From Limnohabitans sp. 103DPR2 (lineage in GTDB: Bacteria; Pseudomonadota; Gammaproteobacteria; Burkholderiales; Burkholderiaceae_C), in contig NZ_CP011834.1 in the NCBI RefSeq assembly GCF_001412575.1, forward strand, positions 186,001-250,000: 64,000 bases of DNA, read 5' to 3'. The position numbers were made by a program, and so were the translations under genes. Shown here one piece after another: positions 29,512 to 48,971 of the stretch. Under the pieces are notes generated by a model, which saw only the letters and a list, made by a program, of their open reading frames with translations, was not told where the DNA came from and did no database searches. Each line of letters opens with the position of its first letter. Within the stretch, counting starts at the first letter, position 1.

Positions 29512-30552
29512 TTATTTGGCTCCACGCATGATGATTTCGTCGTACAACTTGCGCCATTTGTCACGGCGGTCTAGGCTCTCTTCAGGGTCGACCACCAACA
29601 TTTTGTAATTGCGCAAAGTGCTTGGAATCTTGCTATTGGCTGGCAGGTACTCAAGGTCTGCGTAGGCCTGCTGACCCTCGCCCAACAGATAGTCCATGAA
29701 GAGCGCTGCGGCCGCTGGATTTTTGGCATTTTTCATCACGCCCACAGCGTTGCCACGCACCACCGCAGGTTGCAGCACGGTCCAATCGATCGGCGCACCT
29801 TTTTTCTTCAGCTGCTCAGGCATGTAGTTGTAGACGGTGAGGGCCACGGGTACTTCGCCAGCTGCCACCATGTTGGTGAGGTTGGTATGGCCCTTGCGAA
29901 CTGAGATGCCATTGGTGGTGGCCAGTTCTCGAAAATATTGCAGTCCTTTGGCTTCGCCCATGGACTGCACCACGGTCACAAACCAATCGATGTTTTCCAC
30001 CTCATAGCCCAAGCGGCCTTTCCACTTAGGGTCCAACAGGTCTTGGTAGGTTTTGGGCAAATCAGTTTTTTTCACAGCGCCCGTGTTGTAAGCCTGCACC
30101 CACATAGAGTAGATGGTGGTGGCATATTCTTTGTGCGCAGGCACGCTGCCTGGCATCAAGTCTGCAAAGTGCGGCGAGGCCACAGCTTGCAGCATTTTCT
30201 CCCGGTGCAGTACTTCAAGCTCCACAGCACCAGCATGCACCACATCCACGTTGTAGCGCTTGGCTTTGGTTTCGTTCAAGGTGCGGTTCATAACACTGTC
30301 GCCACTGGCGCGCCAAGTCGACACCTTGACACCGTACTTCTTCTCGAACGGCTCAATCAAAGGCTTCAGATCTTTTTCGGCAATGGAGGTGTACAGCGTG
30401 ATGGCGCCTTCTGCTTTGGCTGCAGCGGCCAATTTGGCTGCGCGATCGGGCGCGATACTGCGCAACAAATTCGGATCTGTTTGAGCCAGGGCACTGAAGC
30501 TCAGCCCCCAAATGCTCAGACATGCGACAACACCTAATGTTTTGCGAATCAT
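29512..30552 (-). CDS. ABC transporter periplasmic solute-binding protein (AfuA/PotD type), copy 2
   Basis: This is a 346-residue binding protein with a Sec signal ending FSALAQT near residue 25. It shares the pattern ITLYTSIAEKDLKPLIEPFEKKYGVKVSTWR and VDVVHAGAVELEVLHREKML with the copies at 16476 and 30608. It lies in the same operon as the ABC ATPase and permease, so it is a likely cognate receptor. The stop codon is adjacent to the MFS start. The ligand is probably an organic anion rather than iron, judged from the catabolic setting. Confidence 0.89.
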   Translation of the reverse strand: MIRKTLGVVACLSIWGLSFSALAQTDPNLLRSIAPDRAAKLAAAAKAEGAITLYTSIAEKDLKPLIEPFEKKYGVKVSTWRASGDSVMNRTLNETKAKRYNVDVVHAGAVELEVLHREKMLQAVASPHFADLMPGSVPAHKEYATTIYSMWVQAYNTGAVKKTDLPKTYQDLLDPKWKGRLGYEVENIDWFVTVVQSMGEAKGLQYFRELATTNGISVRKGHTNLTNMVAAGEVPVALTVYNYMPEQLKKKGAPIDWTVLQPAVVRGNAVGVMKNAKNPAAAALFMDYLLGEGQQAYADLEYLPANSKIPSTLRNYKMLVVDPEESLDRRDKWRKLYDEIIMRGAK

Positions 30553-30607: not shown

Positions 30608-31675
30608 TCAACCTTTGCGGCTGAAAATTTCGTCGTAAATTTTGTTCCACTTATGGCCATCGTCCAAAGTTGTTTTGGGGTTGGCAAAAGTCAGTGGCAT
30701 TTTGTTCAAGGTCGAAGGCACCTTGGTACTGGTCGGGATGAAATCCCGCTTGCCCAAAATGACCTGGCCTTCACTGAGTTCAAAGTCTTGGAACAAAAGC
30801 GCAGCATGGGGGTGCGGCGCACTGCGGGCCACACCATTGGAATTGGGGCGTGCAATGGTGGGTTCCAAGGCGAACCAATCCACAGGCGCGCCCGAGTTTT
30901 TCATTTGTTCAATTTTGTAGTTGTACAAAGTGAGGGCCATGGGCACTTCGCCAGAAGCTACCAAATTGGCCAACAAAGTGTGGCCTTTGCGGACAGAGAC
31001 GGCATTCTTGCGGGCAATTTCTTTGAACAAGGCGATGCCTTTTTCTTCACCCATCTTCATCACCGTTTCGGCCAGCCAATCGCTGTCATCGGCCTCAACC
31101 GCCAACTTGCCTTTCCATTTGGGGTCGAGCAAATCTTGGTAGGATTTGGGCAAATCTTCTTTGCGCACCAGTTTCGTGTTGTAAGCACAGGTGAAAATGT
31201 TCAAGCGCGTGGCAATCCACTCTTTGTGCGCAGGGATGGCTTGAGGAATCAACTCGCTTAAGAAAGGTGAATTGCCCGCGATCAACACCTTCTCGCGCGA
31301 CAAGACTTCCATCTCAGGGCTGTTGGTTTCAAACACGTCTACTTCAAAGCGGTTGGCTTTGGCTTCTAGCAAACCACGTTGCAAGATTTTTTCAGAGCCA
31401 CTGCGCCAGACCTTGGCCTTGACACCGTATTTGGCTTCAAAAGCAGAGGTCAGGGCGGCCATGTCGTCTTGTGGCATGGACGTGTAAATGCTGACCACGC
31501 CTTCTTTTTTGGCGCCTTCCACCAAACGTTTCAAGCGCTCAGGACCCGATAAAGCAGCCAAAGCGGCGGTGGTGGCGGCTGAAGGTTGCGCCATCAAAGG
31601 ACCCATTGCGGCCACGCCCAAAGAGGCGGCACCGGCTTGTATCATTTGGCGGCGAGAAAAACGAGAAACGCTCAT
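30608..31675 (-). CDS. ABC transporter periplasmic solute-binding protein (AfuA/PotD type), copy 3, Tat signal
   Basis: This 355-residue binding protein carries a twin-arginine-like signal, SRFSRRQMIQAGAASLGVAA, whereas its paralogues use Sec-type signals. The body shows VVSIYTSMPQDDMAALTSAFEAKYGVKAKVWRSG and VDVFETNSPEMEVLSREKVL. The ATG at 31675 is supported by TTGGAG 7 nt upstream; the longer frame starts with TTG in the RBS itself. It lies in the ABC-cupin operon, just after a bicupin gene. Tat export could mean it folds with a metal or cofactor in the cytoplasm. Confidence 0.88.
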   Translation of the reverse strand: MSVSRFSRRQMIQAGAASLGVAAMGPLMAQPSAATTAALAALSGPERLKRLVEGAKKEGVVSIYTSMPQDDMAALTSAFEAKYGVKAKVWRSGSEKILQRGLLEAKANRFEVDVFETNSPEMEVLSREKVLIAGNSPFLSELIPQAIPAHKEWIATRLNIFTCAYNTKLVRKEDLPKSYQDLLDPKWKGKLAVEADDSDWLAETVMKMGEEKGIALFKEIARKNAVSVRKGHTLLANLVASGEVPMALTLYNYKIEQMKNSGAPVDWFALEPTIARPNSNGVARSAPHPHAALLFQDFELSEGQVILGKRDFIPTSTKVPSTLNKMPLTFANPKTTLDDGHKWNKIYDEIFSRKG

Positions 31676-31687
31676 GGAAATCTCCAA

Positions 31688-32803
31688 TTAAGACTTGGGT
31701 GGCAATGTCGGCAGTTCGGCTTCGTAGGCTTCTTCCATGCGAGGCTTCATGCCATGCTTGGCCAATGAGTCTGCAAAACGTGTGCGAACCGCTTGGCTCT
31801 CGTCAGCATAATCAATTTGGTCGCCACCGACACGGCGGCTGATCCAAGCCTTAGGCACACCCTGGGCATTGCGAATCGATACCACCTCGTGTTTAAAAGC
31901 AAGGTAACGTGCTGGCGTATTGCCTGTATTAAAGTGTTGGTGGAACCACATGTTGGGTGGCACCACCATGGCGCCCACTTCCCAATCGTATTGGCGTGGC
32001 TCTTCACCTTCAGGCCACATCAAGCTGTAACCTTCACCGCTCAAGATGATCACGTGTGCGCCTGGGCCATGGCAATGGGCCTTTTTGTAGGTGCCCACTG
32101 GGAATTGGGAAATGTGGCTGTTCATGGAGCCACGTGCCATGTTGAAGCGAATGTGGCCACCACCAGCACCACGCTCTTTGGCACTGATCAAAGGTAAGTT
32201 CACAGCATCGGCCACGAAATTGGTTTCAAGCAGCAAACCTTTTTGCTCACCCTTGCCACTGAAGTAATCAGGCTCACCGTTGAAACGGTTGGCAAAGTCG
32301 TGCTGTGTGTTGAACACAAAGTTCAGGTCTTCGTACAAGTTGATGACGGGTGGGCCATTGGTCACAGCCACAAAGCGAGCCGCATCCTTGCCTGAACCAT
32401 TGAAGTGCTGGTGCATGCAGTTCAAAGGAATGGCGAACAAAGCGCCCGCTTGCCATTCAAAAGTGATGCGATGGCCTTGGTCGTTCCAAACCGTGGTGGA
32501 CCCACGACCAGACAACACATAGATCATCTCTTCAAAAATTTGACGCTGGGGTTCGAGCTGTTTGCCAGGGGCAATTTCGCACACATAGCAGTCATTGGAA
32601 GTGCGTGAAGCTTCGTGGTTGATGTAAACACCCTTGCCACCGCGGCGTGCCCAAGGCTTCAGGTCAACTGTGTTCAAGCTGCGAATGTAATGGGCACTGA
32701 TGATGTCCAAACCTTCGTTCTTTACCCAACGTGTGTAGGGTGTTTCTTTTTCGGTCGCGAATTTGGAAGCAAGGTCTTCCGATACGAGTGCGTCTTTTGC
32801 CAT
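31688..32803 (-). CDS. Bicupin protein (cupin 2)
   Basis: This is a 371-residue protein with two cupin domains. In the first domain the usual histidines of box 1 are replaced (LEPQRQIFEEMIYVLSGRG), but box 2 keeps MHQHFNGSG. The second domain has a full metal site: KKAHCHGPGAHVIILSGEG and WFHQHFNTG. Length and domain order fit gentisate 1,2-dioxygenase-like bicupins, yet the altered N-terminal site means activity, if any, should sit in the C-terminal cupin. It is 59 nt downstream of a single-domain cupin gene. Confidence 0.8.
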   Translation of the reverse strand: MAKDALVSEDLASKFATEKETPYTRWVKNEGLDIISAHYIRSLNTVDLKPWARRGGKGVYINHEASRTSNDCYVCEIAPGKQLEPQRQIFEEMIYVLSGRGSTTVWNDQGHRITFEWQAGALFAIPLNCMHQHFNGSGKDAARFVAVTNGPPVINLYEDLNFVFNTQHDFANRFNGEPDYFSGKGEQKGLLLETNFVADAVNLPLISAKERGAGGGHIRFNMARGSMNSHISQFPVGTYKKAHCHGPGAHVIILSGEGYSLMWPEGEEPRQYDWEVGAMVVPPNMWFHQHFNTGNTPARYLAFKHEVVSIRNAQGVPKAWISRRVGGDQIDYADESQAVRTRFADSLAKHGMKPRMEEAYEAELPTLPPKS

Positions 32804-32862: not shown

Positions 32863-33459
32863 TTATTTGCGCAAATATTTCAGGATGGTTTCACCATCCA
32901 AAGTGACTGAAGGATCAAACTCCGGTGCATTTTCAATTTGCTCCAAGTCATTCAAGCCGCAGTATTTAAAAATGCGGTTGATAGAGGAGATCAAACGCAC
33001 TGGGCGATCGGGATCTGCATTGAAGTGCTGGTGAATGGTATTTGGTGGAATGTAGATCACATCGCCAGCTTCCCACTCGTAGCGCTTCACTTCAGCTTGC
33101 GGTTTCCAGTGGTAAGTGTCTGTAATTTCCACGTCGCAGTCTTGGTGCAAATCGTAGCCGCGGCCTTCGAGCACGTAAACGCACTCTTCTGCCAAGTGAC
33201 GGTGCTTGCCCGACTTACTGCCTGGTGGAATGACTTGCATGTACGCATCAACGGTTTCGATGCGTGTGTTCATGGATTCATTCAACAAGTGCTTGAGCAA
33301 ACCTTGACGCGCCATTTCCCAGGGCATGTTTTCGGGATGCACCACTTTGTGACGCTTCGAATTGCGCGCAGGCATTTGCTCTGCGTCGTCCAACAAGCCT
33401 TGGTAGTACTTGCCTTGTTGGTTGCCTTGCAACCATGATTTTGATTCGTCCCAAGCCAT
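32863..33459 (-). CDS. Single-domain cupin protein (cupin 3)
   Basis: This 198-residue cupin has complete box 1 (GKHRHLAEECVYVLEGRG: H-x-H, then E) and box 2 (IPPNTIHQHFNADPD), so a 3-His-1-carboxylate metal site is expected. The start ATG at 33459 is one base after the TGA of the upstream cupin gene, with GGGAGG about 9 nt before it. Family members include Fe, Mn and Ni dioxygenases as well as isomerases and non-catalytic sensors. No specific reaction can be assigned. Confidence 0.82.
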   Translation of the reverse strand: MAWDESKSWLQGNQQGKYYQGLLDDAEQMPARNSKRHKVVHPENMPWEMARQGLLKHLLNESMNTRIETVDAYMQVIPPGSKSGKHRHLAEECVYVLEGRGYDLHQDCDVEITDTYHWKPQAEVKRYEWEAGDVIYIPPNTIHQHFNADPDRPVRLISSINRIFKYCGLNDLEQIENAPEFDPSVTLDGETILKYLRK

Positions 33460-33460
33460 C

Positions 33461-34063
33461 TCAGTAGCCTCCCTTTGGATGGTTAAAGTCTTCTTCGTCA
33501 TTGCGGGCCACAAAGCCTTCGCCGCCTGGAGCGGGTTCGCTTGGGCGGGGTTCCACTTGGTGTTGGAACAACATGTTCATGAACATGTACATGGGTTTGG
33601 TTTTGATCACCAAGGCACGGGCAGGTCGCTCGTTGCTGGCGTTAAAGTGTTGGTGCACGCAGTTGTTGTGGACCACTGCAATGTCGCCGGCTTTCCAGTC
33701 GTAGCGGATGCCGTCGTGAATTTCATAGCCTGTGCCATCCAAAATGTAGAAAGCAGCTTCATTCACGTGACCATGCTTCTGTGAGTTGCCACCAGGGCCG
33801 TACTCTTCCAAGTGCATGTGGAATGTTTGTGTGATGCCATCTTTAGGCTCTACATAGTGGCGGCTAAAAGCTTGAGGGCCATCGTTGAATTTGATGTCTT
33901 TGCCTTTGCGCACGCGAGGCATGGCACGCAGGCGCTTGAGTTCATCGCCTAAGTTGTAGGGGCCGGCAATCGCACGCACAAAGGTGCGATCTTTTTTGCT
34001 GTGGTAGTGCGACTCGTTGGGAACGAATTCCGTCGAGGGCGCTTTTTTGTCATCAGCACTCAT
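33461..34063 (-). CDS. Single-domain cupin protein (cupin 4)
   Basis: This 200-residue cupin has metal motifs KHGHVNEAAFYILDGTG and NNCVHQHFNASNE, again with H-x-H plus E and the H-Q-H-F-N box. It is closely linked to cupin 3 (1 nt apart) and follows the ABC ATPase gene by 24 nt. AAAGGA precedes the ATG. The two small cupins could form a heteromer equivalent to a bicupin; this is an inference from their coupling. Confidence 0.82.
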   Translation of the reverse strand: MSADDKKAPSTEFVPNESHYHSKKDRTFVRAIAGPYNLGDELKRLRAMPRVRKGKDIKFNDGPQAFSRHYVEPKDGITQTFHMHLEEYGPGGNSQKHGHVNEAAFYILDGTGYEIHDGIRYDWKAGDIAVVHNNCVHQHFNASNERPARALVIKTKPMYMFMNMLFQHQVEPRPSEPAPGGEGFVARNDEEDFNHPKGGY

Positions 34064-34087: not shown

Positions 34088-35197
34088 TTAATTTTGATTT
34101 TTCAAGACAATGCAGTCGGACGGGTCCAACACGATGTGAATCGGTGCATCCACTGGCGTTTTCTGGCTTGGGTGAACACGCGCCAGCATCACTTTGTCTT
34201 TCACTTGGACTTGGAAGTCGAGCACTTCGCCCAAGAAGATCTTGGCGTACACAGTGCCCAAGTAATGGTTGGTGTGATTCACGGGCGGCGTGGAGTCACT
34301 CAGATGAATGTCTTCTGGACGGATACACACCTGCACCTCTTCACCGACACGGAAATCATTGATCATGGGAACTTGAACGATGCCAATTTCTGAATCCACC
34401 ACCATGGCCTTCGCCGCAGCATCGATCGAACGGACGGTGGCTTTGATGAAGTTGATGGTGCCCACAAAGTCGGCCACAAACTCACTGTTGGGCGTTTCAT
34501 AGATTTGGCGAGGTGAGCCAATTTGCATGATTCGGCCGTTGCGCATCACGGCAATTTCGTGCGACAAGGCCAAGGCCTCCGACTGATCGTGCGTGACATA
34601 AATGGTGGTGATGCCCAATTCGCGTTGGATTTTCTTCAACTCAAAGCGCATCTTCTCGCGCAGCTTGGCATCCAAGTTAGACAGCGGCTCGTCCAGCAAC
34701 AAAAGCTTAGGCTCCATCACCAGCGCACGCGCCAAAGCCAAACGTTGTTGCTGACCGCCAGACAAACGCGTGGCATCGCGGTCGTGGTACTGCGCCAACT
34801 CAACCGACTCCAAAACGCGCATCACCTTGGTTTCGATTTCTTTGCGACTGTAATTTTTTTGTCCCACTTCCAAGGGGAAGCTGGCGTTCTGAAACACGGT
34901 CATGTGGGGCCAGATGGCGTAGGACTGAAACACCATGCCAAAGCCACGCTTGTTAGGCGGTACAAAAATGTTCTCTGAAGAGCTGTAAACATTCGTGCCA
35001 CTGACACTGATCACACCCTCTGTGGGCTTCTCGAGACCGGCAATTGAGCGCAGCGTTGTGGTTTTTCCACAGCCACTGGGACCCAACAATGTAAAGAGTT
35101 GACCCTCGGGCACTTCAAAGCTGACATCTTGCGCGGCCTTGACGACAACGCCTTTGTCACTCACATATTCGGTATGCAATCCACTGACATTTAACAC
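34088..35197 (-). CDS. ABC transporter ATP-binding protein (FbpC/PotA type)
   Basis: This 369-residue ATPase energises import. The Walker A is G39-P-S-G-C-G-K-T46, the Q-loop FQSYAIWPHMTV, the signature LSGGQQQRLALARAL, the Walker B LLLLDEPLSN, and the H-loop YVTHDQSEAL. A C-terminal TOBE domain begins after about residue 250. The start is a GTG, supported by AAGGA 7 nt upstream. It lies 63 nt downstream of the fused permease gene. Together with that permease and one or more of the three binding proteins it makes a complete importer. Confidence 0.93.
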   Translation of the reverse strand: MLNVSGLHTEYVSDKGVVVKAAQDVSFEVPEGQLFTLLGPSGCGKTTTLRSIAGLEKPTEGVISVSGTNVYSSSENIFVPPNKRGFGMVFQSYAIWPHMTVFQNASFPLEVGQKNYSRKEIETKVMRVLESVELAQYHDRDATRLSGGQQQRLALARALVMEPKLLLLDEPLSNLDAKLREKMRFELKKIQRELGITTIYVTHDQSEALALSHEIAVMRNGRIMQIGSPRQIYETPNSEFVADFVGTINFIKATVRSIDAAAKAMVVDSEIGIVQVPMINDFRVGEEVQVCIRPEDIHLSDSTPPVNHTNHYLGTVYAKIFLGEVLDFQVQVKDKVMLARVHPSQKTPVDAPIHIVLDPSDCIVLKNQN

Positions 35198-35260: not shown

Positions 35261-36994
35261 TTAACTCTCTTTGACCCCGAAGCGCTTGCCTGCCATTTGG
35301 GCGATGCCCACCAAAACCAGCAGCATCAAGATGAACAACACACTCAATGCTGAGAGCTCGACGTACTGGCCGTTTTCCCACAACTCCCAAATCACAATGG
35401 AGATCACTTCATTGCCTGGGCTGTACAACAGAATGGAGGTCGACAATTCACGGATCGAAACAATCATCACGTAGATCCAGCCAGCCACCAGACCAGGCTT
35501 TAGCAGCGGCAAGATGATGCGGCGGAACACAGTGAGCCAGCTTGCACCGCTCATGCCCGCAGACTCTTCCAAATCTTTGTGAATTTGCAACATGGACGTG
35601 GTGCTGTAGCGCAAACCATAGGGCAAAAAGCGCGTGATGTAGGCCAGCAAAATAATCCAGAAAGTGCCGTAAATGCCGATGTCAAATGTGAGATAGAAAA
35701 TCATGATCGACACGCCGAGCACCAAGCCTGGGAAGACCATTGGCAATGAAGCCAAGTTGTCCAACAGCCAGCGGCCACGAATTTTTGTTTTCACCACAAT
35801 CCAGCAAACCACTGAGGCCAACAGCATCACCACGGTTGCAGTGGTGAGAGACATCCACAAACTGTTGAAGGCGGCCGCACGAATGGTGTCTGAACCCAAG
35901 ATGTAGCGGTAGCCGTCTAAAGTGATGCGTGACAAAGCTTCGATGGAAGGCGGCGCATAAAACTTTTGCAGCGAGGACCACAACAATACCAAGAAGGGCA
36001 AGATCACAATCAGCAAAAAGTAGACGATGAAAATTGCCAAAGTGAAATAGCGCCAAACGCCCAAGTCAATGGTGCGAGGACGGAAACCCTTGCCCGTCAC
36101 GGTGGCGTATTTGTTACCAGAAGCCGAGATTCGCGCCTGGACATAAATGCCGCCTGTGGTCAGCAACAGCAAAATGACCGAGTAACTGGCGGCAAGACCA
36201 ATCTGACTGGGGTATTGGTGAATGGCTTGATAAATGGCCGAAGTGAACACCTGAATGCCGCCGGGCAAACCAAGTAGTGCTGGCACTTCAAAGGACTCAA
36301 TGGCACGCACAAACAGGGTGAGCACGGTTGCCACGATGGCCGGAAAAGCCAGTTTCAGCGTAATTCGCCACAAGGTATTGAGAATGCTAGAACCACTCAT
36401 CACAGCAGACTCTTCGAGTGAGGGGTCCATGGCCCTGAAGGCCGAAGACATCAACAAGAATGCCATGGGTGAGTAATGCAAACCATCGACCCAAATCATG
36501 CCCCACATGGAATAGATGTTGAAGGGCGGCGCACTCAAACCAAATGCGGCCATGGCCCATGTGTTGAGCAAACCAATCTTGGGACTGGCCAGCATGATCC
36601 ATGAAATGGTGAACAAAATGCTGGGAATGATCAGCGGCACGATGGACAAAGCAAAGAACAAGCGCCGCATGGGCGTGTTGGTTCTTTCGTTCATCCAGGC
36701 CAGTGCGGTACCAATGACAAAAGCCAAAAATGAACCGCCCAAAGCAAACTGCACGGAGTTCCAAAAAATGGCCACCGTTTCTGGGTTGGTGTACGCGGTG
36801 ACGTAATTCTCAAGCGTGAATGTGGAGGGTGACGTTGCAGTTTCAGGCGTGTGGAAACTTTGCCAAATCATGAAACAGAAGGGCACCAGAGCGAGCACGG
36901 CGACCACAGCCAAGCTGATGCCAATGACCACCCATTTGGCGTCGAACGCCGCCCCAAATTTGGGACTTGCAGTTTCTGCGACTGAACTTCTCAC
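35261..36994 (-). CDS. Fused ABC transporter permease (FbpB type, two permease domains)
   Basis: This 577-residue protein contains two tandem BPD_transp_1 domains, each with about six membrane segments. The EAA loops read EESAVMSGSSILNTLWRITLKLAFP in the first half and EESAGMSGASWLTVFRRIILPLLKP in the second. Duplication in a single chain is typical of FbpB and related importers. The start is a GTG with CTGGAG upstream. It is the first gene of the operon running to 26307, and an operator-like site lies at 37039-37075. Confidence 0.92.
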   Translation of the reverse strand: MRSSVAETASPKFGAAFDAKWVVIGISLAVVAVLALVPFCFMIWQSFHTPETATSPSTFTLENYVTAYTNPETVAIFWNSVQFALGGSFLAFVIGTALAWMNERTNTPMRRLFFALSIVPLIIPSILFTISWIMLASPKIGLLNTWAMAAFGLSAPPFNIYSMWGMIWVDGLHYSPMAFLLMSSAFRAMDPSLEESAVMSGSSILNTLWRITLKLAFPAIVATVLTLFVRAIESFEVPALLGLPGGIQVFTSAIYQAIHQYPSQIGLAASYSVILLLLTTGGIYVQARISASGNKYATVTGKGFRPRTIDLGVWRYFTLAIFIVYFLLIVILPFLVLLWSSLQKFYAPPSIEALSRITLDGYRYILGSDTIRAAAFNSLWMSLTTATVVMLLASVVCWIVVKTKIRGRWLLDNLASLPMVFPGLVLGVSIMIFYLTFDIGIYGTFWIILLAYITRFLPYGLRYSTTSMLQIHKDLEESAGMSGASWLTVFRRIILPLLKPGLVAGWIYVMIVSIRELSTSILLYSPGNEVISIVIWELWENGQYVELSALSVLFILMLLVLVGIAQMAGKRFGVKES

Positions 36995-37382: not shown

Positions 37383-38165
37383 ATGACCACAGATTCCACA
37401 TCATCCAAAAGCTCACGCCTGTCGTCAGTCGCGGCCGCTGTGCGCGTCCTTAAATGTTTCTCCGAAGTGGAGCCCGAAATTGGCATCAGCAGCTTGGCCA
37501 AGCGTTTGTCTTTGGCCAAAAGCACGGTCCACCGTTTGGCGGTTACCCTGACCAGTGAGGGACTTTTAGAGCAAAGCCCAGAAACCGGTCGCTACCGCTT
37601 AGGCATCAATTTGTTCGTGATGGGCGCCTTGGTGCGCCGTCGCCTGGATGTGTCCAACATGGCCCAGCCCTTCCTGAATGTGCTGCGCGAGAAGACGGGC
37701 GAAACCATTCACTTGGCCGTGATGAATGAAACCAACATTTTGTACCTTTACAACTTGGAGAGCAGCCAAGCCATTCGCATGAAAAGCTACATCGGCACCA
37801 TCAAGCCCGCTTTTTGCACTTGCGAAGGACGTGCCATCGTGGCCTTTGGCGGTACCGAACTCATGAACAAAGTGCTCAGCAGCCCGTTGGCAGCCCGTAC
37901 GCCCGAAACGCAAACCGACCCCGCCAAATTGATGAAGATGTTTGCCGAAATTCGCGCCCACGGCTACGCCATCGATGACGAAGAGTCAGAGCAAGGCATG
38001 CGTGGCATTGGCGCGCCACTGCGTGACATCACAGGTCAAGTGGTGGCAGCCATCGGCATTGGCGGTCCCAGCCAACGCCTGACCTTGAAAAAATTACGCG
38101 GCTTGGCACCCGTGCTGTTAAACACGGCCGAGTCCATTTCGACACAACTCGGCTACCGGGCTTAA
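37383..38165 (+). CDS. IclR-family transcriptional regulator
   Basis: This 260-residue regulator has an N-terminal winged helix-turn-helix (about residues 15-75: GISSLAKRLSLAKSTVHRLAVTLTSEGLLEQ, then the wing GRYRLGINLF). A C-terminal effector-binding domain follows, containing FCTCEGRAIVAFGG near residues 140-153. IclR proteins respond to small aromatic or organic acids and usually act as dimers or tetramers on paired palindromes. It is the only catabolic-type regulator in the island. It is followed by the reductase gene after 37 nt and is probably co-transcribed with it and the second eutA-like gene. Confidence 0.93.
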   Translation: MTTDSTSSKSSRLSSVAAAVRVLKCFSEVEPEIGISSLAKRLSLAKSTVHRLAVTLTSEGLLEQSPETGRYRLGINLFVMGALVRRRLDVSNMAQPFLNVLREKTGETIHLAVMNETNILYLYNLESSQAIRMKSYIGTIKPAFCTCEGRAIVAFGGTELMNKVLSSPLAARTPETQTDPAKLMKMFAEIRAHGYAIDDEESEQGMRGIGAPLRDITGQVVAAIGIGGPSQRLTLKKLRGLAPVLLNTAESISTQLGYRA

Positions 38166-38202: not shown

Positions 38203-39246
38203 ATGTCTCAAGCAGTACACACCATTCAACTGGCGGGCACCGACCAGTCATTCCCATGCGCAGAAAACGACACCTTGCTGCGCGCCGCACTTCGAAATGG
38301 CATTGCCTTTCCATATGAGTGCAACGTCGGCTCCTGCGGCAATTGCAAATTTGAATTGCTAGAAGGCGTCATGGCCTCTTGCTGGCCCGAAGCCCCCGGT
38401 CTTTCCGACAAAGACCGTGCGCGCAACAGAGGACTGGGTTGCCAAAGTCGTCCCACAGGCCCCTTGCAAATCAAGCTGAGAACCAGCGACAAATACGCGC
38501 CACAGTTTCCGCCTGTGCGCACACCTGCCAAGCTCATCGCCTCGCGCGTCATCACGCATGACTTGTCTGAATTCACCTTTCAAACCGACGCGCCCATGCC
38601 CTTTTTAAGTGGCCAATACGCACTGATACAAATGGACGGCATTGCAGGACCGCGTGCCTACTCCATGAGCAATGTGGGTCTGTTCAGCGGCGAGAGCCAA
38701 GGCGGCAATTTGATCGAAGTGCAAGTGCGACGCGTGCCAGGCGGTCAAGGCAGCGCCCATTTGTTTGACCATTTGAAGCCAGGCGACCGCGTTGAAATCG
38801 ATGGCCCTTATGGCATGGCCTATTTGCGAGAAAACATTGAGCGTGACATTTTGTGCATCGCAGGTGGTTCCGGCTTGGCGCCCATGGTCTCCATTGCGCG
38901 CGGCACTTTCAGCAGCCCTCGCATGGCAGGCAGAAAACTCAGCTTCTTCTATGGCGCCCGCGCCATCCAAGATGTGTGTGGTCTAGACATGCTGACCACT
39001 TTGCCTCAGTGGCAAGAGCGCGGCACCTATCAAGCTGTGGTGTCGGGTGCCAACGAGGAAGAACACTTGCCTGAAGGCTACCTTCGCGGTTTTGTCCATG
39101 ATGCGGTCGCCCAAACTTATGGTGACCGCTTACAGCAAATGGAAATCTATTTTGCGGGTCCGGCCATGATGGGCCAGTCTCTTTTGAAAACCTTGATTGA
39201 TCTCAAAGTGCCCATGGACCAAGTGCACTTTGACCAGTTTTATTGA
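38203..39246 (+). CDS. 2Fe-2S/FAD/NAD(P)H reductase (oxygenase reductase type)
   Basis: This 347-residue electron-transfer flavoprotein has an N-terminal plant-type ferredoxin domain with C40, C45, C48 and C80 as cluster ligands. A ferredoxin-NADP reductase module follows: RAYSMSN binds FAD near residue 150 and CIAGGSGLAPMVSIA binds NAD(P) near residues 223-237. This order matches reductases of class III ring-hydroxylating dioxygenases and CDP-4-dehydro-6-deoxyglucose reductase-like proteins. It can plausibly feed the Rieske ferredoxin at 46128 and the two oxygenases. Its stop is only 9 nt from the second eutA-like gene, so it might also serve that ATPase. Confidence 0.92.
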   Translation: MSQAVHTIQLAGTDQSFPCAENDTLLRAALRNGIAFPYECNVGSCGNCKFELLEGVMASCWPEAPGLSDKDRARNRGLGCQSRPTGPLQIKLRTSDKYAPQFPPVRTPAKLIASRVITHDLSEFTFQTDAPMPFLSGQYALIQMDGIAGPRAYSMSNVGLFSGESQGGNLIEVQVRRVPGGQGSAHLFDHLKPGDRVEIDGPYGMAYLRENIERDILCIAGGSGLAPMVSIARGTFSSPRMAGRKLSFFYGARAIQDVCGLDMLTTLPQWQERGTYQAVVSGANEEEHLPEGYLRGFVHDAVAQTYGDRLQQMEIYFAGPAMMGQSLLKTLIDLKVPMDQVHFDQFY

Positions 39247-39255
39247 ACGGCGCGT

Positions 39256-41073
39256 ATGAGCAGCGAAGACATCAAAAACAAACACAGCGTCCAAGACCAC
39301 CAGTACGGCGCCGACACCTATCACACGCACGACGGTGAAGCCGATCACGACCATGATCATGATTTCGCCGGCGATGACCCTTCTCAAGAATCCCTCTGGC
39401 GCCAAGACAATGTGATCTTGCACAGCGTGGGCATTGATGTGGGCTCTTCTGGCACACAAGTGGTTTTTTCACGCATTCACTTGCGCCGCATTGCCGAGGA
39501 TTTGTCCAGCCGCTACACCGTGGTCGAACGCACGGCCTTGTACCAATCCCCCATCTCCCTCACGCCGTATTTGAACGACAGTTTGATGGACGCCAAAGCC
39601 TTGGGCACCATCATCGACAAGGCCTACCAAGACTCTGGCTTGCATCCCGATGAGATCGATGCCGGTGCCGTGATCTTGACCGGTGAAGCCTTGCGCCGTG
39701 AGAACAGCGAGTCGATTGCTGCGGTGTTGGCAGAGCAAGGCGGCGAATTTGTGTGCGCAACGGCGGGCCACCACATGGAAGCCATGCTGGCCGTTTACGG
39801 CTCGGGCGCTGCCAAACGCTCCTACGATGAAAAACATCGGATTTTGAACATCGACATTGGCGGAGGCACCACCAAATTGGGCCTGGTGCAAAACGGCGAG
39901 CTGATTGCCACGGCTGCCGTGCACTTGGGTGGCCGCCTCATGGTGGTGAACGAAACAAATGTGCTCACCCGACTTGACCCCGCAGGTGCTTACCTTGCTC
40001 AACAAGCGGGCTTCGATTGGAAATTGGGCGATCAAGTTTCGCGCCAAGATCTGGCCAAGGTGGCGCAGTGGATGGCCGATGCATTGGTGCGTGTTTTGAC
40101 GCAAAAATTCACACGCGAAGACCTGTCCAACCTGTACCTCACAGACCCCGTAGACGATTGGGGCCAACTCGATGGCATCATGTTCTCTGGTGGCGTAGGC
40201 GAGTATGTGTACCGCCGCGAAATGCGGGACTTCGGTGATTTGGGCAAACTGTTTGGTGAAGCTGTGCGTCAGCGCCTTGATCAAAACGCCGTTCCCGTTC
40301 CACTTTTGCCTGCAGGTGAATGCATTCGCGCCACCGTGCTGGGCGCATCCGAGTACAGCGTTCAGCTCAGTGGCAACACCACCTTCATTTCTGAACCTGC
40401 AGCCCTGCTGCCGCGAAAAAATCTGCAGGTGATTCCTTTGAACCTTGAGCTCAAAGAAACCATCGATCCCGTTGAGATTGCAGAAGCACTGGGCAAATCG
40501 TTCCGCAGACACGACTTGGTGGAAGGGGCGCAAGATGTGGCCATTTCACTGCGTTGGTTGGGCGCGCCCTCTTTCACACGACTGCATGCCTTGTCGCAAG
40601 GCATCTTGCAGGGACTGCCCGAAACCTTGAAACAACAGCGGCACTTGTACATCGTGACCGACGGCGACATCGCACACAACTTGGGGCATTTGTTCAAAGA
40701 AGACGAGCGCGTCAAGTGCGAAGTCTTGGTCATCGATGGTGTCACCCTGTGGGGCTTTGACTTTGTTGATTTGGGCCGCATTCGCATGCCCTCATGGACC
40801 GTGCCTGTCACCGTCAAGTCGCTGGTCTTCAATGAAGATCCCCGTGCGCATGGCAAATCAGATCCTGGCGAATGGCATGCCCACGAAGACGGCAAGATGC
40901 ACCGCCACGACCACAAGAAACCCCATTCACATGGCCATGGGCATTCACACGATCATGGCCACGACCATGGACACGGTCACTCACATGACCACGACCATCA
41001 TCATGACCATGGTCACGATCACGCACACGGCACACAACACGCACTGAACTTGGTCCACAAGGCCAAGCCATGA
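39256..41073 (+). CDS. EutA-family ASKHA ATPase with His-rich N- and C-terminal tails, copy 2
   Basis: This is a 605-residue EutA homologue, about 140 residues longer than the enteric protein. The ASKHA core runs from about residue 57 (V-G-I-D61-V-G-S-S) through LNIDIGGGTTKLGL and MFSGGVGEYVYRREMRDFGDLG. The N-terminus (residues 13-36) is rich in H and D. The C-terminal tail from residue 541 to about 595 contains some 26 histidines in HxH, HGH and HDH patterns, like the metal-storage tails of HypB, UreE and CobW proteins. It lies 9 nt behind the 2Fe-2S reductase and just upstream of nickel transport and sensing genes. A metal-delivery or metal-centre reactivation role is the best inference; no ethanolamine ammonia-lyase is present in the window. 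Confidence 0.87.
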   Translation: MSSEDIKNKHSVQDHQYGADTYHTHDGEADHDHDHDFAGDDPSQESLWRQDNVILHSVGIDVGSSGTQVVFSRIHLRRIAEDLSSRYTVVERTALYQSPISLTPYLNDSLMDAKALGTIIDKAYQDSGLHPDEIDAGAVILTGEALRRENSESIAAVLAEQGGEFVCATAGHHMEAMLAVYGSGAAKRSYDEKHRILNIDIGGGTTKLGLVQNGELIATAAVHLGGRLMVVNETNVLTRLDPAGAYLAQQAGFDWKLGDQVSRQDLAKVAQWMADALVRVLTQKFTREDLSNLYLTDPVDDWGQLDGIMFSGGVGEYVYRREMRDFGDLGKLFGEAVRQRLDQNAVPVPLLPAGECIRATVLGASEYSVQLSGNTTFISEPAALLPRKNLQVIPLNLELKETIDPVEIAEALGKSFRRHDLVEGAQDVAISLRWLGAPSFTRLHALSQGILQGLPETLKQQRHLYIVTDGDIAHNLGHLFKEDERVKCEVLVIDGVTLWGFDFVDLGRIRMPSWTVPVTVKSLVFNEDPRAHGKSDPGEWHAHEDGKMHRHDHKKPHSHGHGHSHDHGHDHGHGHSHDHDHHHDHGHDHAHGTQHALNLVHKAKP

Positions 41074-41125: not shown

Positions 41126-41152
41126 GTATGACGAATTAGAAGAAAATCACAC
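41126..41152 (+). promoter_or_regulatory. Possible NikR operator before the nickel/cobalt transporter gene
   Basis: GTATGA at 41126-41131 and TCACAC at 41147-41152 are separated by 15 nt. The enterobacterial NikR box is GTATGA-N16-TCATAC, so one arm is exact, the other matches 5 of 6, and the spacing is one short. It abuts the transporter start codon. A nikR gene lies at the other end of the transporter gene, which makes the site plausible. Confidence 0.4.
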
Positions 41153-41153
41153 C

Positions 41154-42020
41154 ATGGATTTGAACACAACATCACTGCTCGCGACGTCAGGTTTGTTGCT
41201 CGCTTTGGGCTTCAGACACGGCCTCGACCCCGATCACATTGCGGCGGTCGATGGCATGACACGATTGCGCCACAAAGGTCGTGCTTATTGGAAAGCGCGC
41301 CTCACAGGCTTTCAATTTGCCTGCGGCCACAGCCTCACCATTTTGCTGGCCACCTTTGTGTTTTACATGTACGGCATTCAATTGCCCGAATGGCTGGACG
41401 CAGTGGGGCTTTGGATTTCGACATTCTTCCTGGTGTGGTTGGCTTACCGCAATTTGAAGTTTTGCTATTCGGGCAACGACGATCACCACCATGCAGGCAG
41501 CCCTGTGCAACGCAAAATTTTGCAAGCCATGGGTCCTTTTGCACATCCCATGGGCGTTGGCTTTGGTTTTGCCATTTCGTTCGACTCTTTGGCACAAGCC
41601 GGTCTGATGGCGGCCAAGGGTCACGAGTTGGGTGGCTTGTTTGCCATCATCGCCATGGCCCTTAGCTTTGGCATCGGCATGACGCTGGCCGACACCAGCA
41701 ATGGGTTGCTGATGCATTGGCTGGTCCATCGCAGCCATGCACTGGCGCACAACGCAGGTCGCATCATGAGTGGTGTGATTGCAACGCTGTCACTGATGGT
41801 GGTGGCCGTCGGTCACGCCAGCCAACACTTTGAAAACCTTGAAGCCATTTGGGACGCCTGGGGTGCCTACATCGGCCTCAGTGTCACTGGCATGGCGATC
41901 TTGGTCTACTTGGTCAGCATGCGCCTGTATCGCAGCGCCAATGCTAACTGGCAGGTTGTAAGTGCACATGGTGGACACCGTCCCCATGGTCGTGCCCCTT
42001 CGCTGCTTTTTCCAAAGTAA
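41154..42020 (+). CDS. NiCoT-family nickel/cobalt transporter (HoxN/NixA-like)
   Basis: This is a 288-residue inner-membrane permease with about eight hydrophobic segments. The NiCoT signature in the second segment is present as R-H22-G-L-D-P-D27-H28-I-A-A-V-D, the H-x4-D-H metal motif. Other family stretches are GFGFAISFDSLAQ and GIGMTLADTSNGLLMHW. Members import Ni2+ and/or Co2+ with high affinity. It is shorter than typical members (about 330-350). The last 77 bp overlap the convergent nikR gene, and the extreme C-terminus is encoded antisense to nikR, so its exact end is unusual but the frame is open. Confidence 0.9.
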   Translation: MDLNTTSLLATSGLLLALGFRHGLDPDHIAAVDGMTRLRHKGRAYWKARLTGFQFACGHSLTILLATFVFYMYGIQLPEWLDAVGLWISTFFLVWLAYRNLKFCYSGNDDHHHAGSPVQRKILQAMGPFAHPMGVGFGFAISFDSLAQAGLMAAKGHELGGLFAIIAMALSFGIGMTLADTSNGLLMHWLVHRSHALAHNAGRIMSGVIATLSLMVVAVGHASQHFENLEAIWDAWGAYIGLSVTGMAILVYLVSMRLYRSANANWQVVSAHGGHRPHGRAPSLLFPK

Positions 42021-42414
42021 CCGGCACAATTTGAACAGAGCCGTGGCGCACACCTGTTTGGGCCACGATGCGATGCGCAAATTGCCTCACATCTTTGGTT
42101 TTGCCGCGCAAAAATGCCACCTCTAAACAGTTGTCATGGTCCAAGTGCAAATGCATGCTGGACACCGTCAGGTCATGGTGGTCGTGCTGCAAATTGGCAA
42201 TGCGCTCGGCCATGGTGCGATCATGGTGGTTGTACACATAACCCAAATGCGCAATGCAGTGCTCGCTCTCGTTTTGACGCAAGGTTTCTTGCGAATGCCA
42301 ACCGCGAATCAGATCTCGAATCGCTTCCGAGCGGGAGGCATAGCCATTTTTTTCGGCCAATTGGTCCAAAATGGCAGCCAATTCGGTTTCAAGTGAAATG
42401 GTGATGCGTTCCAT
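41944..42414 (-). CDS. nikR: Nickel-responsive regulator NikR
   Basis: This 156-residue ribbon-helix-helix repressor has an N-terminal DNA-binding domain MERITISLETELAAILDQLAEKNGYASRSEAIRDLIRG. Its ACT-like nickel domain carries the high-affinity ligands as H-L-H-x5-C in SSMHLHLDHDNCLEV, plus the partner histidine in LQHDHHDL. These correspond to H87, H89, C95 and H76 of E. coli NikR. I chose the ATG at 42414, since the upstream extension has no homology. The tail is histidine-rich. It is convergent with and overlaps the transporter gene. Its presence points to nickel rather than cobalt as the sensed metal. Confidence 0.93.
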   Translation of the reverse strand: MERITISLETELAAILDQLAEKNGYASRSEAIRDLIRGWHSQETLRQNESEHCIAHLGYVYNHHDRTMAERIANLQHDHHDLTVSSMHLHLDHDNCLEVAFLRGKTKDVRQFAHRIVAQTGVRHGSVQIVPVTLEKAAKGHDHGDGVHHVHLQPAS

Positions 42415-42479
42415 GAAAGTGCCTTGCAAAAATAGTCAGCGAATGTCAGCATGATACGCAGAAGCACGCCCTCCAGTCC

Positions 42480-43556
42480 ATGAACCCCCTCGACAAACGC
42501 ATTCCCGTTTATTTGCTCACAGGCTATTTGGGCAGCGGCAAGACCAGCCTCCTCAAAGCTTGGCTGGGTCAAGACGCGTTCAAAGATGCCGCCTTGGTGA
42601 TCAATGAGTTAGGCGAAGTGGGATTGGACAACCAGCTGCTCAGTGGCGCCACCGAAAGCGCCGCACTGGTGGCCAGTGCGTGTGTGTGCTGCACTGGCTT
42701 GCCAGGTTTGGCCGAAGCGCTCGAAGACTTGTTCTGGGCTCGCCTTGAAAGGCGCATGCCGCGCTTTCCCAACTTGGTCATTGAAACCACAGGCTTGGCA
42801 GAACCCGGTCCTGTGGCCGAGGCCTTGCGCAGCAGCGATTTGCTCAAAGAGCGCTATCGCTTGGCTGGTGTGATCACATGCCTCAGCGCCAGCACTGCAG
42901 ATGCGGTGCTCAAACAACACGCTGAAGCCCGTGCCCAATTGGCCGATGCAGATGTGTTGGTCATCACCAAAACAGACTTGGTCAGTGACGATCATTTGGC
43001 GGCACTGACATTGCGTGTGCAACATCAGTTGGCCCATTTGGAACTTGAACATGCGCCGCACTTGCTCACATCCGCGCAAGCCCGCTTATCGGCAGATGAT
43101 GTGTTAGCGAGCCTGGCACTTCGCGCTGCTTCGCAGGCACCTGGCCCGTTTCGCGAATTCAAAGCAGTGACAACACTTGCGCACGGATTGCACTTGCACC
43201 GACCTGGCGAGCACTGTGACATTTGCGAAGGCACGCGTGCGTCAGCGCATGCTGCGCAAGCCTTGTGGTGGCCGCTCGTGGCACTTCCAAGCCTTGCTGA
43301 AGTCTGTGAACAGGTGCAAGCGCTTCAAAGCACTTTGGGGTCAGAGCTGCTGCGCTTAAAAGGCCGCGTCCAAACACCAGAGGGCGCGCATGTGATTCAA
43401 CTGGCGCCTTTTGAAACACATGCTGAGGTTTGTCAAGACGAACTGCCTTGGTCAGACACCACACGCAGTGGCTTCACAGTGATTGTAAGCAGCCACTTGT
43501 CGGCTGCTTCAGCGCAATGGCTGACCCAACACGGCATGTCAAGCCTGGCGGCTTAA
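42480..43556 (+). CDS. CobW/COG0523-family GTPase metallochaperone
   Basis: This 358-residue P-loop GTPase has Walker A G15-Y-L-G-S-G-K-T22, the metal-binding C68-V-C-C71, the ETTGLAEPGP switch region and the guanine-specificity motif T-K-T-D. The C-terminal CobW_C domain contains HLHRPGEHCDIC, another metal-binding candidate. COG0523 proteins deliver Zn, Co or other metals in a GTP-dependent way; CobW itself supports cobalamin synthesis. Its place next to nikR and the NiCoT gene suggests Ni or Co handling. It is divergent from nikR and convergent with the alcohol dehydrogenase gene. Confidence 0.9.
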   Translation: MNPLDKRIPVYLLTGYLGSGKTSLLKAWLGQDAFKDAALVINELGEVGLDNQLLSGATESAALVASACVCCTGLPGLAEALEDLFWARLERRMPRFPNLVIETTGLAEPGPVAEALRSSDLLKERYRLAGVITCLSASTADAVLKQHAEARAQLADADVLVITKTDLVSDDHLAALTLRVQHQLAHLELEHAPHLLTSAQARLSADDVLASLALRAASQAPGPFREFKAVTTLAHGLHLHRPGEHCDICEGTRASAHAAQALWWPLVALPSLAEVCEQVQALQSTLGSELLRLKGRVQTPEGAHVIQLAPFETHAEVCQDELPWSDTTRSGFTVIVSSHLSAASAQWLTQHGMSSLAA

Positions 43557-44683: not shown

Positions 44684-45967
44684 TTAGACGCTAGAGTGTG
44701 GCTTGCCAGGTGCAGACTTGAAGTGCTCTTTGGCACCTTCTTTGTAATGCACATCGCGCTTCAACAAAACGGCCACTGAGCGAACTTTTTGATGCTCAGG
44801 GTTCAATCCGGGCAATTCAAAATCTGGGTTCTCAGCCAAAGCACGTGCCGCTTTGATCAAACGCTGACGCGCCATGATGATGCCGTTGTCGGTGGACACC
44901 AAGTTCTCTTTGGTGCGGTCTTGAATGCTGCCCATGCTTTCTTGCAATGACGCGTCTTGCATGCCAATGCCTTCAATGCCGCTGTACAACAAACCTTCTT
45001 TTTGAGCCTTGCGGTCCATCAAGTAGTCGTTGTCCATGCGCTGCAAAGGCACATAGTTTTTGTCGACCTTCACGTGAATGCTGGCACCGCCCTTCATGGC
45101 GTCCACTTCTTCCTTGGTCAATGCGCGTGTGGGATGGTAGTCAAAGCTCCATGTCCAGCACGCATGGTCATTGATGGGCACCCAGAAGTGACCGTGCACA
45201 GGGTGATCACCGCGGGGTGGCACCATGGTGAAGCAAGGCATGATCCAGGGTGTGATGCGCCAGTAGTACTGGTCGTCTTCTGCATTGCGACGTGCACCCA
45301 CCAACAAACCTCCATCGGCTTCCACCACTTCAAAGACAGGGCTCAAGTCGTTTAAGTTGTATTGGTTGCCTTTGGCGCCTTTGAACAAGGGGTCTCGGCT
45401 GAGTGACGCGCTGTGCAAGAAAGACACGTGGCTGGAATCAATGCCGCCTTCCAATGCTTGCAACCAGTTGCTGGCTTGCAAACGCTTGGACATGTAAGAG
45501 TGCTCGCGTGGCAAGGTGGCAAATTCCCACTCTGGCAGCGGCGGTTGTTTGTCTGCAGGGCCCATGTACACCCATATCACGCCACCGCGCTCTACCATGG
45601 GGTAAGACTTCAATTTAATGCGCTCACAGTAGCCAGATGTCGGCTCAGAAGGCACCTCCGTGCAATTGCCGTTCACGTCGTATTTCCAACCGTGGTAAGG
45701 GCAACGAATGCCGTTATCTTCATTGCGACCAAACCACAGCGACACGCCACGGTGTGCGCAAAACTCATCGATCAAGCCCAACTTGCCTTCGGTGTCGCGG
45801 AAGGCGAGCATTTTTTCTGACAGCAATTCCAAACGCACGGGTTCGCAATCAGGGCCGGGCAATTGCTCGGACAACAAGGCAGGCAACCAGTAACGACGGA
45901 ACAAATTGCCCATGGGGGTGCCAGGACCAGTTTGGGTTACCAGGTCATTGAGTTCTTTTTTCAACAT
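44684..45967 (-). CDS. Rieske non-haem iron oxygenase, phthalate 4,5-dioxygenase-like, copy I
   Basis: This is a 427-residue oxygenase alpha subunit. The Rieske cluster ligands are C70-x-H72 and C89-x-x-H92 (CAHRGVSLWFG and CPYHGW). The catalytic iron site shows the bridging D177 with H180 and H185 in GGIDSSHVSFLH. The length and lack of a beta subunit place it with the homotrimeric phthalate dioxygenase/O-demethylase group. Substrates of that group are aromatic acids or ethers; the actual one is unknown. GAGGAG precedes the ATG. An operator at 46047-46083 lies between this gene and the divergent Rieske ferredoxin. It is roughly four-fifths identical to copy II by eye. Confidence 0.92.
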   Translation of the reverse strand: MLKKELNDLVTQTGPGTPMGNLFRRYWLPALLSEQLPGPDCEPVRLELLSEKMLAFRDTEGKLGLIDEFCAHRGVSLWFGRNEDNGIRCPYHGWKYDVNGNCTEVPSEPTSGYCERIKLKSYPMVERGGVIWVYMGPADKQPPLPEWEFATLPREHSYMSKRLQASNWLQALEGGIDSSHVSFLHSASLSRDPLFKGAKGNQYNLNDLSPVFEVVEADGGLLVGARRNAEDDQYYWRITPWIMPCFTMVPPRGDHPVHGHFWVPINDHACWTWSFDYHPTRALTKEEVDAMKGGASIHVKVDKNYVPLQRMDNDYLMDRKAQKEGLLYSGIEGIGMQDASLQESMGSIQDRTKENLVSTDNGIIMARQRLIKAARALAENPDFELPGLNPEHQKVRSVAVLLKRDVHYKEGAKEHFKSAPGKPHSSV

Positions 45968-47687: not shown

Positions 47688-48971
47688 TCAAACGGAACTG
47701 TGTGGTTTGCCCGGCGTCGCGCGCAATGCCTCTTGGGCCGCATCCTTGAAGGCCAAATCTCGCTTCAACAAAATCGCTGCCGAACGAACCTTTTGCGCCT
47801 CAGGATCGATGCCAGGCAATTTGTAATTGGGATCTTCCGCCAAAGCTTTGGCCGCTTTCATCAAACGCTGTCGCGTCATGATGATGCCGTTGTCGGTCGA
47901 CACCAAATTCTCTTTGGTGCGGTCTTGAATGGTGCCCATGCTTTCTTGCAAGGACGCATCCTGAATGCCGATGCCTTCAATGCCACTGTAGAAAATGCGC
48001 TTGCGTTGCGCATCGCGGTCCATGCCGTAGTTGTTTTCTTTGCGCTGCAGCGGTTTGTAATCGGCATCAACCTTCACGTGGACGCTGGCGCCACCTTCCA
48101 TGGCGGAGCGCTCTGCATGCGTCAATGCGCGCGTAGGATGGTAGTCAAAGCTCCATGCCCAGCAGGCATGGTCATTGATCGGCACCCAGAAGTGGCCATG
48201 CACCGGGTGATCACCGCGCGGCGGCACCACGGTGTAATTTGGCATCACCCACGGTGTGATGCGCCAGTAGTATTGGTCGTCCTCCGCATTGCGGCGCGCC
48301 CCAATGTACAAGCCACCGGTTGCCTCGACCACTTCAAACACGGGGCTCAAATCATTCAAGTTGTACTGATTGCCCTTGGCCCCTTTGAACAAGGGATCGG
48401 TGTTCAAACTGCCACTGTGCAAGAAAGACACATGGCTTGAGTCAATGCCCCCCTCCAAAGCTTGGAGCCAATTGCACTCTTGGTAGCGCTTGGACATGTA
48501 CGACTGCTCGGCCGGTACGGTGGCAAATTCATATTCAGGGAAGGGCGGCTGCTTGTCGGCTGGGCCCATGTACACCCAGATCACACCACCGCGTTCAATC
48601 ATGGGATAAGACTTTAGCTTGATGCGGTCACAGTAGCCGGAAGTGGGCTCGGAAGGAACTTCAATGCACTGACCCTTGATGTCAAATTTCCAACCGTGAT
48701 AAGGGCAACGCAACCCATTCTCTTCATTGCGACCAAACCACAAGGACACGCCTCGGTGCGCACAAAACTCATCAATCAAACCCAAGCGGCCTTGCGTGTC
48801 GCGAAAGGCCACCATCTTTTCGGAAAACAGCTCTAAGCGCACGGGATCGCAATCAGGGCCTGGCAACTGCTGCGACAACAAGGCAGGCATCCAATAGCGC
48901 CGAAACAGATTGCCCATGGCCGTGCCGGGGCCAGTTTGTGTGACGAGGTCGTTTTGCTCTTTTTTCAACAT
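47688..48971 (-). CDS. Rieske non-haem iron oxygenase, phthalate 4,5-dioxygenase-like, copy II
   Basis: This 427-residue paralogue has the same length as copy I. Cluster ligands C70, H72, C89 and H92 and the iron site GGIDSSHVSFLH are all conserved. Differences concentrate in residues 160-200 and in the C-terminal third (for example SLNTDPLF versus SLSRDPLF, and the ADYKPLQRKENN segment), which may change substrate or regiospecificity. The gene has its own operator 26 nt upstream of the start and is not followed by a dehydrogenase. CGGAGACC precedes the ATG. It probably arose by duplication within this island. Confidence 0.92.
   Translation of the reverse strand: MLKKEQNDLVTQTGPGTAMGNLFRRYWMPALLSQQLPGPDCDPVRLELFSEKMVAFRDTQGRLGLIDEFCAHRGVSLWFGRNEENGLRCPYHGWKFDIKGQCIEVPSEPTSGYCDRIKLKSYPMIERGGVIWVYMGPADKQPPFPEYEFATVPAEQSYMSKRYQECNWLQALEGGIDSSHVSFLHSGSLNTDPLFKGAKGNQYNLNDLSPVFEVVEATGGLYIGARRNAEDDQYYWRITPWVMPNYTVVPPRGDHPVHGHFWVPINDHACWAWSFDYHPTRALTHAERSAMEGGASVHVKVDADYKPLQRKENNYGMDRDAQRKRIFYSGIEGIGIQDASLQESMGTIQDRTKENLVSTDNGIIMTRQRLMKAAKALAEDPNYKLPGIDPEAQKVRSAAILLKRDLAFKDAAQEALRATPGKPHSSV

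Follow-up and report, generated by a model that had tools for sequence, protein, structure and literature searches.

What could a EutA-family ATPase with a histidine-rich segment at each end do among genes for oxygenases and nickel/cobalt transport? The question is raised by a gene of Limnohabitans sp. 103DPR2, which lies in a 64,000-nucleotide stretch of contig NZ_CP011834.1 (positions 186,001 to 250,000; the window) and whose product is here called His-tailed EutA (Table 1). The answer proposed, to which we give even chances, is that the protein uses ATP to load metal into, or to reactivate, the metal-dependent cupin oxygenases of a catabolic gene island.

The core of the protein belongs to Pfam family PF06277 (EutA), which covers residues 55-526 with E 7.5e-112 and 375.1 bits (gathering score 27; profile positions 3-475 of 475). 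Pfam shows only EutA and BcrAD_BadFG in this protein and no G3E P-loop GTPase domain, and the top score against the NCBIfam EutA equivalog, 313.6 bits, lies under its cut-off of 598. The sequences GIDVGSSGTQ, NIDIGGGTTK and FSGGVGEYVY, which we take to be the three ASKHA nucleotide motifs (phosphate/adenosine), are all present and are largely invariant in the core alignment A1. The AlphaFold2 (AF2) model of the core predicts an ASKHA (actin-like) fold; by this predicted fold and its motifs, which are those of the superfamily, the protein is a member of the ASKHA ATPases. Residues 537-605 contain 26 histidines in 69 positions and residues 1-55 contain seven histidines and 11 aspartates, with 13 histidines in the 481 residues from 56 to 536. 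At an assumed background of 2.5% histidine, the binomial probability is about 5e-24 for the C-terminal tail (26 in 69) and about 1e-4 for the N-terminus (seven in 45). The sequence-only reading of this DNA, which described His-rich tails at both ends of an intact ASKHA core and enteric EutA as free of them, is thus borne out: E. coli K-12 EutA consists of the core from start to end.

Relatives were sought with A1, from which both tails were left out, and the best 80 of 468 confirmed matches form the set of loci L012-L091. The N-terminal H/D motif is present in 78 of these 80 relatives with a pattern that was loosened after inspection of the misses of a stricter version (74/80); the exceptions are L073, in which a contig end cuts the motif, and L087, which does not have it. 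Alignment A2 contains the window protein and 56 of the 80 loci (57 sequences), leaving out near-duplicates, three fusions, L087, L053, L081 and a few more. D14, D34 and H35 of the motif are nearly invariant in these 57 proteins, in addition to the invariant residues of Table 1. Seven of the latter are histidines (five) or aspartates (two), and both synonymous codons are used at them, so the protein, and not merely the DNA, is under preservation. The core residues H172, H223 and C356 are also invariant in A2; the same positions show Asp, Asp and Gly in the paralogue EutA2 described below and Pro, Asn and Thr in E. coli EutA. The C-terminal tail has at least 10 histidines in 75 of the 80 relatives, and its length ranges from 1 to 81 residues among the 77 unfused proteins. 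By these two counts (78/80 and 75/80) the subfamily shows the conserved His-rich stretch of HypB-type metallochaperone NTPases. Absence of the tails from close orthologues had been named in advance as the outcome that would speak against a metal function; run as set, this comparison finds them in close and distant orthologues alike. Conservation is stronger in the N-terminal motif than in the tail: L060, L072, L074 and L084 have tails with fewer than 10 histidines and retain the motif. Since the motif is kept where the tail shrinks, it is more likely to be the functional metal site, and the tail to be a buffer. A further EutA paralogue at L073:6956-8617, on a long branch of the tree, has the N-terminal H/D motif without the C-terminal His tail.

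Two EutA proteins of the Limnohabitans sp. 103DPR2 genome score over the cut-off, and EutB was not found in it. EutB, NikR and NicO were searched in 49 genomes that carry His-tailed EutA, chosen for long flanks; EutB is present in 10 of them and was not found in the other 39. Among 229 genomes of the host's class, three have EutA, 12 have EutB and one has both. Because EutB is missing from the host genome and from these 39 carriers, the canonical ethanolamine role was rejected. In a tree of 99 sequences, rooted on a chosen outgroup and with L053 and L081 left out, the His-tailed proteins form one clade (support 0.871), which includes L087, and the EutA2 proteins form a second (support 1.0). 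Both are separate from the three outgroup EutA proteins, of Haladaptatus, G204 and E. coli; those of Haladaptatus and G204 adjoin EutB. The His-tailed subfamily is most likely a widespread one that has left ethanolamine metabolism. EutA2 lacks tails, its N-terminal signature is GGRVFFSNVRRSLE, and it adjoins the bicupin biCup2. This pair also occurs in other Betaproteobacteria, in Hyphomicrobiales and in four rhizobial plasmids, in which biCup2 is 74-76% identical.

His-tailed eutA belongs to a cupin/ABC/Rieske island. A cupin gene lies within 10 kb in 39 of the 44 fully flanked loci, and ABC genes are present in 31 of them. In the second cupin of biCup1, the candidate client, His243, His245, His288 and His290 are invariant; alignment A4 contains 28 of the 31 non-redundant biCup1 relatives. 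In L048, L058 and L089, EutA, a His-rich linker and the ABC permease form one open frame of about 1160-1200 residues; Pfam finds both domains in the L058 protein, the one that was scanned. These fusions tie EutA to the importer, though probably through one event, since they are 81-88% identical over the aligned stretches. Their sources are metagenome-assembled genomes (MAGs); those of L048 and L058 are titled Bordetella parapertussis, a doubtful label, and that of L089 is an uncultured betaproteobacterium. The two solute-binding proteins (SBP1 and SBP2) match ferric-iron binding proteins weakly, with best scores of 58.7 and 53.6 bits, and the top match of SBP2 is a pyridoxal-5-phosphate binding protein (60.1 bits). 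Paired tyrosines serve iron binding in ferric-iron binding proteins; SBP2, the one of the two that was compared, has Asn-Tyr-Met where the ferric-iron protein 7li0 has Tyr-Tyr-Tyr, and so no tyrosine pair. Ferric-iron import was rejected on these two grounds, and the models of 2-aminoethylphosphonate and polyamine importers were set aside because the scores lie under their cut-offs. Given its best match and the missing tyrosine pair, SBP2 suggests that the imported substrate may be organic. Upstream of eutA, homologues of the ferredoxin reductase occur in 34 of the 80 loci and those of the IclR-type regulator in 45; names of clusters, IclR, TctC and glyoxalase-like among them, were partly assigned by eye.

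NiCoT, nikR and CobW genes had been reported downstream of eutA, and nicO, nikR (converging on nicO from the opposite strand) and a CobW-type GTPase gene are indeed found there. A nickel/cobalt transporter gene is present in 36 of the 45 loci labelled betaproteobacterial by their record titles and in none of the other 35; among fully flanked loci the counts are 22/26 and 0/18. The transporter is of the NicO type in 33 of the 80 loci and of the HoxN/NixA type, adjoining nikR, in three Paraburkholderia/Burkholderia loci, and its position relative to eutA varies among groups. The association first noticed in this one stretch therefore recurs in other genera, with varied gene orders and two transporter types, but it is limited to one lineage. 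NicO homologues at E<1e-25 are found in 22 of the 49 carriers, identical to the 22 that have a NicO-type gene in the locus; at the looser E of 0.001 there are 32, of which ten have weak matches only. NikR is found in 32 of the 49, within the eutA locus in 12 and elsewhere in 20, as read from coordinates. In the genus Limnohabitans, NikR is present in four of 36 genomes, exactly those with His-tailed EutA; these four have a single linked island in common and do not count as separate events. Urease (E<1e-30) is present in 31 of the 36 (in G011 the match, E 1.3e-17, is partial and lies at the end of a contig) and was rejected as the reason for NikR on comparison with those four. [NiFe]-hydrogenase was rejected as nickel user, as the host genome has no PF00374 match at E 0.001. 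A Phyllobacterium zundukense plasmid shows nixA and nikR directly after the biCup2-EutA2 pair, and three Sinorhizobium plasmid stretches (41 kb) with this pair show neither NiCoT nor NikR at E 1e-10. The NikR-box consensus usually has a spacing of 16. A similar palindrome at nicO is found in 10 of 18 Limnohabitans-type loci, the window counted, with at most two mismatches allowed, and the scan also matched many other places, one of them at 21449 in the window with one mismatch; with its spacing off and so many other matches, this site lends weak support. The CobW-type GTPase beside nikR has a His-rich stretch (at least seven histidines in 20 residues) in nine of the 16 members of its cluster.

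With the B12 enzyme mostly missing, tails of the metal-binding type, and oxygenase-like and nickel/cobalt neighbours, the probable task of His-tailed EutA is to load or repair a metal centre. Passages of PMC5821096 describe EutA as a factor that clears ethanolamine ammonia-lyase of damaged cobalamin and requires ATP to do so. His-tailed EutA has the same Pfam family across its full core and the ASKHA motifs; unlike E. coli EutA, to which it is 30% identical, it adds the N-terminal H/D motif and the His tail, has a cupin neighbourhood and usually no EutB in the genome. In PMC2770081, G3E GTPases are insertases or combined insertases and metallochaperones, MeaB serving a B12 enzyme and HypB and UreG nickel enzymes, and a His stretch is taken there, as in sections of PMC7055735, as the mark of the combined type. 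Like HypB, UreG and COG0523 (CobW) proteins, His-tailed EutA is an NTPase with its own His-rich stretch, often beside nickel transport genes, but it is an ASKHA ATPase and they are P-loop GTPases; by this analogy it looks like the G3E-type step repeated in another fold. With UreE and SlyD it shares a C-terminal His-rich tail of variable length; UreE and SlyD are not known to have an ATPase domain, and they serve other clients. The UreE tail is dispensable for urease maturation in what PMC7055735 reports of it.

We infer metal binding, the identities of metal and client, and ATP coupling as follows. To judge from family, position and the box-like site, NicO or NixA under the control of NikR would supply the metal where they are present, and the C-terminal tail would buffer it, by analogy with the tails of HypB, SlyD and UreE. 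The N-terminal H/D motif, on the strength of its conservation, would be the specific transfer site. ATP turnover on the ASKHA core would power an exchange at the client, comparable to that of damaged cobalamin by EutA, and the client would be a bicupin, for which synteny and conservation make biCup1 the best candidate; EutA2, without a tail, would do likewise for biCup2. His-tailed EutA would thus be an exchange factor that acquired a conserved metal-type motif along with a buffer tail and took a metal cupin as its client in place of a B12 enzyme. The metal, loaded anew or put back where it was lost, would most likely be divalent: nickel or cobalt in betaproteobacteria, and perhaps iron or another metal elsewhere. 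A narrower proposal, that the protein is an ASKHA metal insertase, a converted B12-enzyme reactivase that loads nickel or cobalt (or iron) into ring-cleaving cupin dioxygenases, is put forward tentatively, with the chances against it.

Several observations weigh against loading or reactivation of cupins. Five fully flanked loci have no cupins, L087 is without the N-terminal motif though it stands beside biCup1, all 35 loci outside the betaproteobacteria are without a nickel/cobalt transporter, and the metal may vary by lineage. The metal-delivery or reactivation role of the sequence-only reading is still the best one, and the findings set to overturn it did not appear; it was too simple in its choice of neighbours, as cupins and the ABC importer are more constant than the nickel/cobalt genes. 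The loci L049, L054, L055, L070 and L075 have no cupin, ABC or NiCoT genes within about 10 kb, and several of them contain CoA-ligase-like, glyoxalase-like and TctC-type genes, named by eye; the client there is possibly different.

The constancy of the importer, together with the three fusions and the likeness of both solute-binding proteins to ferric-iron binding proteins, would also suit a metal-gated partner of the ABC importer, that is, an ATPase on the cytosolic side of the permease that senses or collects the imported substance, with the cupins as mere pathway neighbours. We hold this to be unlikely, since the fusions probably record one event, ABC genes are absent from 13 of the 44 full loci and cupins from five, the substrate may be organic, and the importer already has an ATPase of its own. 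A plain nickel store or sink, in which the tail buffers nickel for general use such as urease and the core keeps a cobalamin-related role on some other B12 enzyme, has in its favour the urease and six B12-binding matches over cut-off in the host genome, and the His tails of HypB have been proposed as a nickel store in the portion of PMC7055735 on that protein. It appears quite unlikely, as the B12-binding matches all lie outside the window, urease is far more widespread in the genus than His-tailed EutA with NikR, and the N-terminal motif is conserved to a very high degree for a mere sink.

In another explanation, redox reactivation, the ATPase would work with the ferredoxin reductase adjacent to eutA and drive electron transfer that returns an Fe(II) cupin or a Rieske centre from its oxidised to its reduced state, in the manner of the activators of 2-hydroxyacyl-CoA dehydratases (the BcrAD/BadFG family). 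Those activators hold a [4Fe-4S] cluster between subunits, on conserved cysteines, whereas C356 is the sole invariant cysteine of His-tailed EutA in A2; moreover, outside the loci labelled betaproteobacterial, the reductase is found in just two of 35 (L080 and L082), and it may simply serve the Rieske oxygenase, and we regard this explanation as very unlikely. That the protein is the canonical reactivase of ethanolamine ammonia-lyase, with a tail that is only decorative, would agree with the EutA name in Pfam and NCBIfam and with the ten carriers that have EutB. The host and the 39 carriers without EutB, the NCBIfam score short of its cut-off and the separate clade make it highly improbable.

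If the cupin-directed role is correct, some cupin oxygenases are matured or repaired by an ATP-driven system of their own, and metal insertion can be built on the ASKHA fold as well as on the P-loop GTPases. On the narrower insertase proposal, His-tailed EutA would be the first metal insertase on an ASKHA ATPase, repeating the course of MeaB, HypB and UreG in the actin/Hsp70 fold, and a set of cupin dioxygenases would depend for their maturation on a dedicated NTP-driven factor. The gene label 'ethanolamine ammonia-lyase reactivating factor' is probably a misnomer in these bacteria. Open-access full texts gave nothing that joins EutA with 'histidine-rich', or 'reactivating factor' with Rieske or with ASKHA and nickel, although such a link may be in print elsewhere.

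Table 1. Features of the His-tailed eutA island; positions are those of the window unless a locus is named.
Feature	Position	Strand	Basis or remark
His-tailed EutA-family ASKHA ATPase, 605 aa	39256..41073	+	PF06277; AF2 core
N-terminal H/D motif, residues 10-36	39283..39363	+	H10, H15, G18, H23, H25, D32, H33, D36 invariant in 57 sequences
C-terminal His-rich tail, residues 531-605	40846..41070	+	length differs among orthologues
EutA2, tail-less paralogue, 43% identical to His-tailed EutA	21471..23012	-	distinct clade
biCup2, bicupin adjoining EutA2	23012..24238	-	homology
SBP2, solute-binding protein	29512..30552	-	homology
SBP1, solute-binding protein	30608..31687	-	homology
biCup1, bicupin, candidate client	31688..32803	-	gentisate/salicylate-dioxygenase-like fold
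CupB, single cupin	32863..33513	-	His104, His106, Glu110, His161, His163 invariant in 37 members
CupC, single cupin	33461..34063	-	His97, His99, His137, His139 invariant in 37 members
ABC ATPase, same importer as the permease	34088..35197	-	homology
ABC permease	35261..36994	-	best model PhnU2, under cut-off; homologue fused to EutA in three MAGs
EutA-permease fusions	L048:4486-8025, L058:9839-13315, L089:9830-13426		both Pfam domains (L058)
IclR-type regulator, upstream of eutA	37383..38165	+	58% identical to annotated Phyllobacterium IclR regulator
BenC-like ferredoxin reductase, ends 9 bases 5' of eutA start	38203..39246	+	under every NCBIfam cut-off
NikR-box-like palindrome GTATGA-N15-TCACAC, directly 5' of nicO	41126..41152	+	likeness to consensus; spacing 15
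NicO-type Ni/Co transporter	41154..42020	+	PF03824, 34.6 bits (cut-off 27.7)
nikR, nickel-responsive regulator	41944..42429	-	PF08753 E 1.4e-27, PF01402; PRK02967 over cut-off
CobW/COG0523-type G3E GTPase	42480..43556	+	PF02492 E 3.5e-36; under NCBIfam cut-offs of named members
LigXa/phthalate-dioxygenase-type Rieske oxygenase	44684..45967	-	closest PDB 9ina, E 7.6e-141
Second Rieske oxygenase, same cluster as the first	47688..48971	-	clustering

At least two alphaproteobacterial islands contain members of a small protein cluster (c31, five members) with a His-rich C-terminus, at L083:19139-19534, a copy that shows no Pfam match, and at L086:15458-15913. Between the two Rieske genes of the window lies a gene for a TctC-type binding protein, named by eye.
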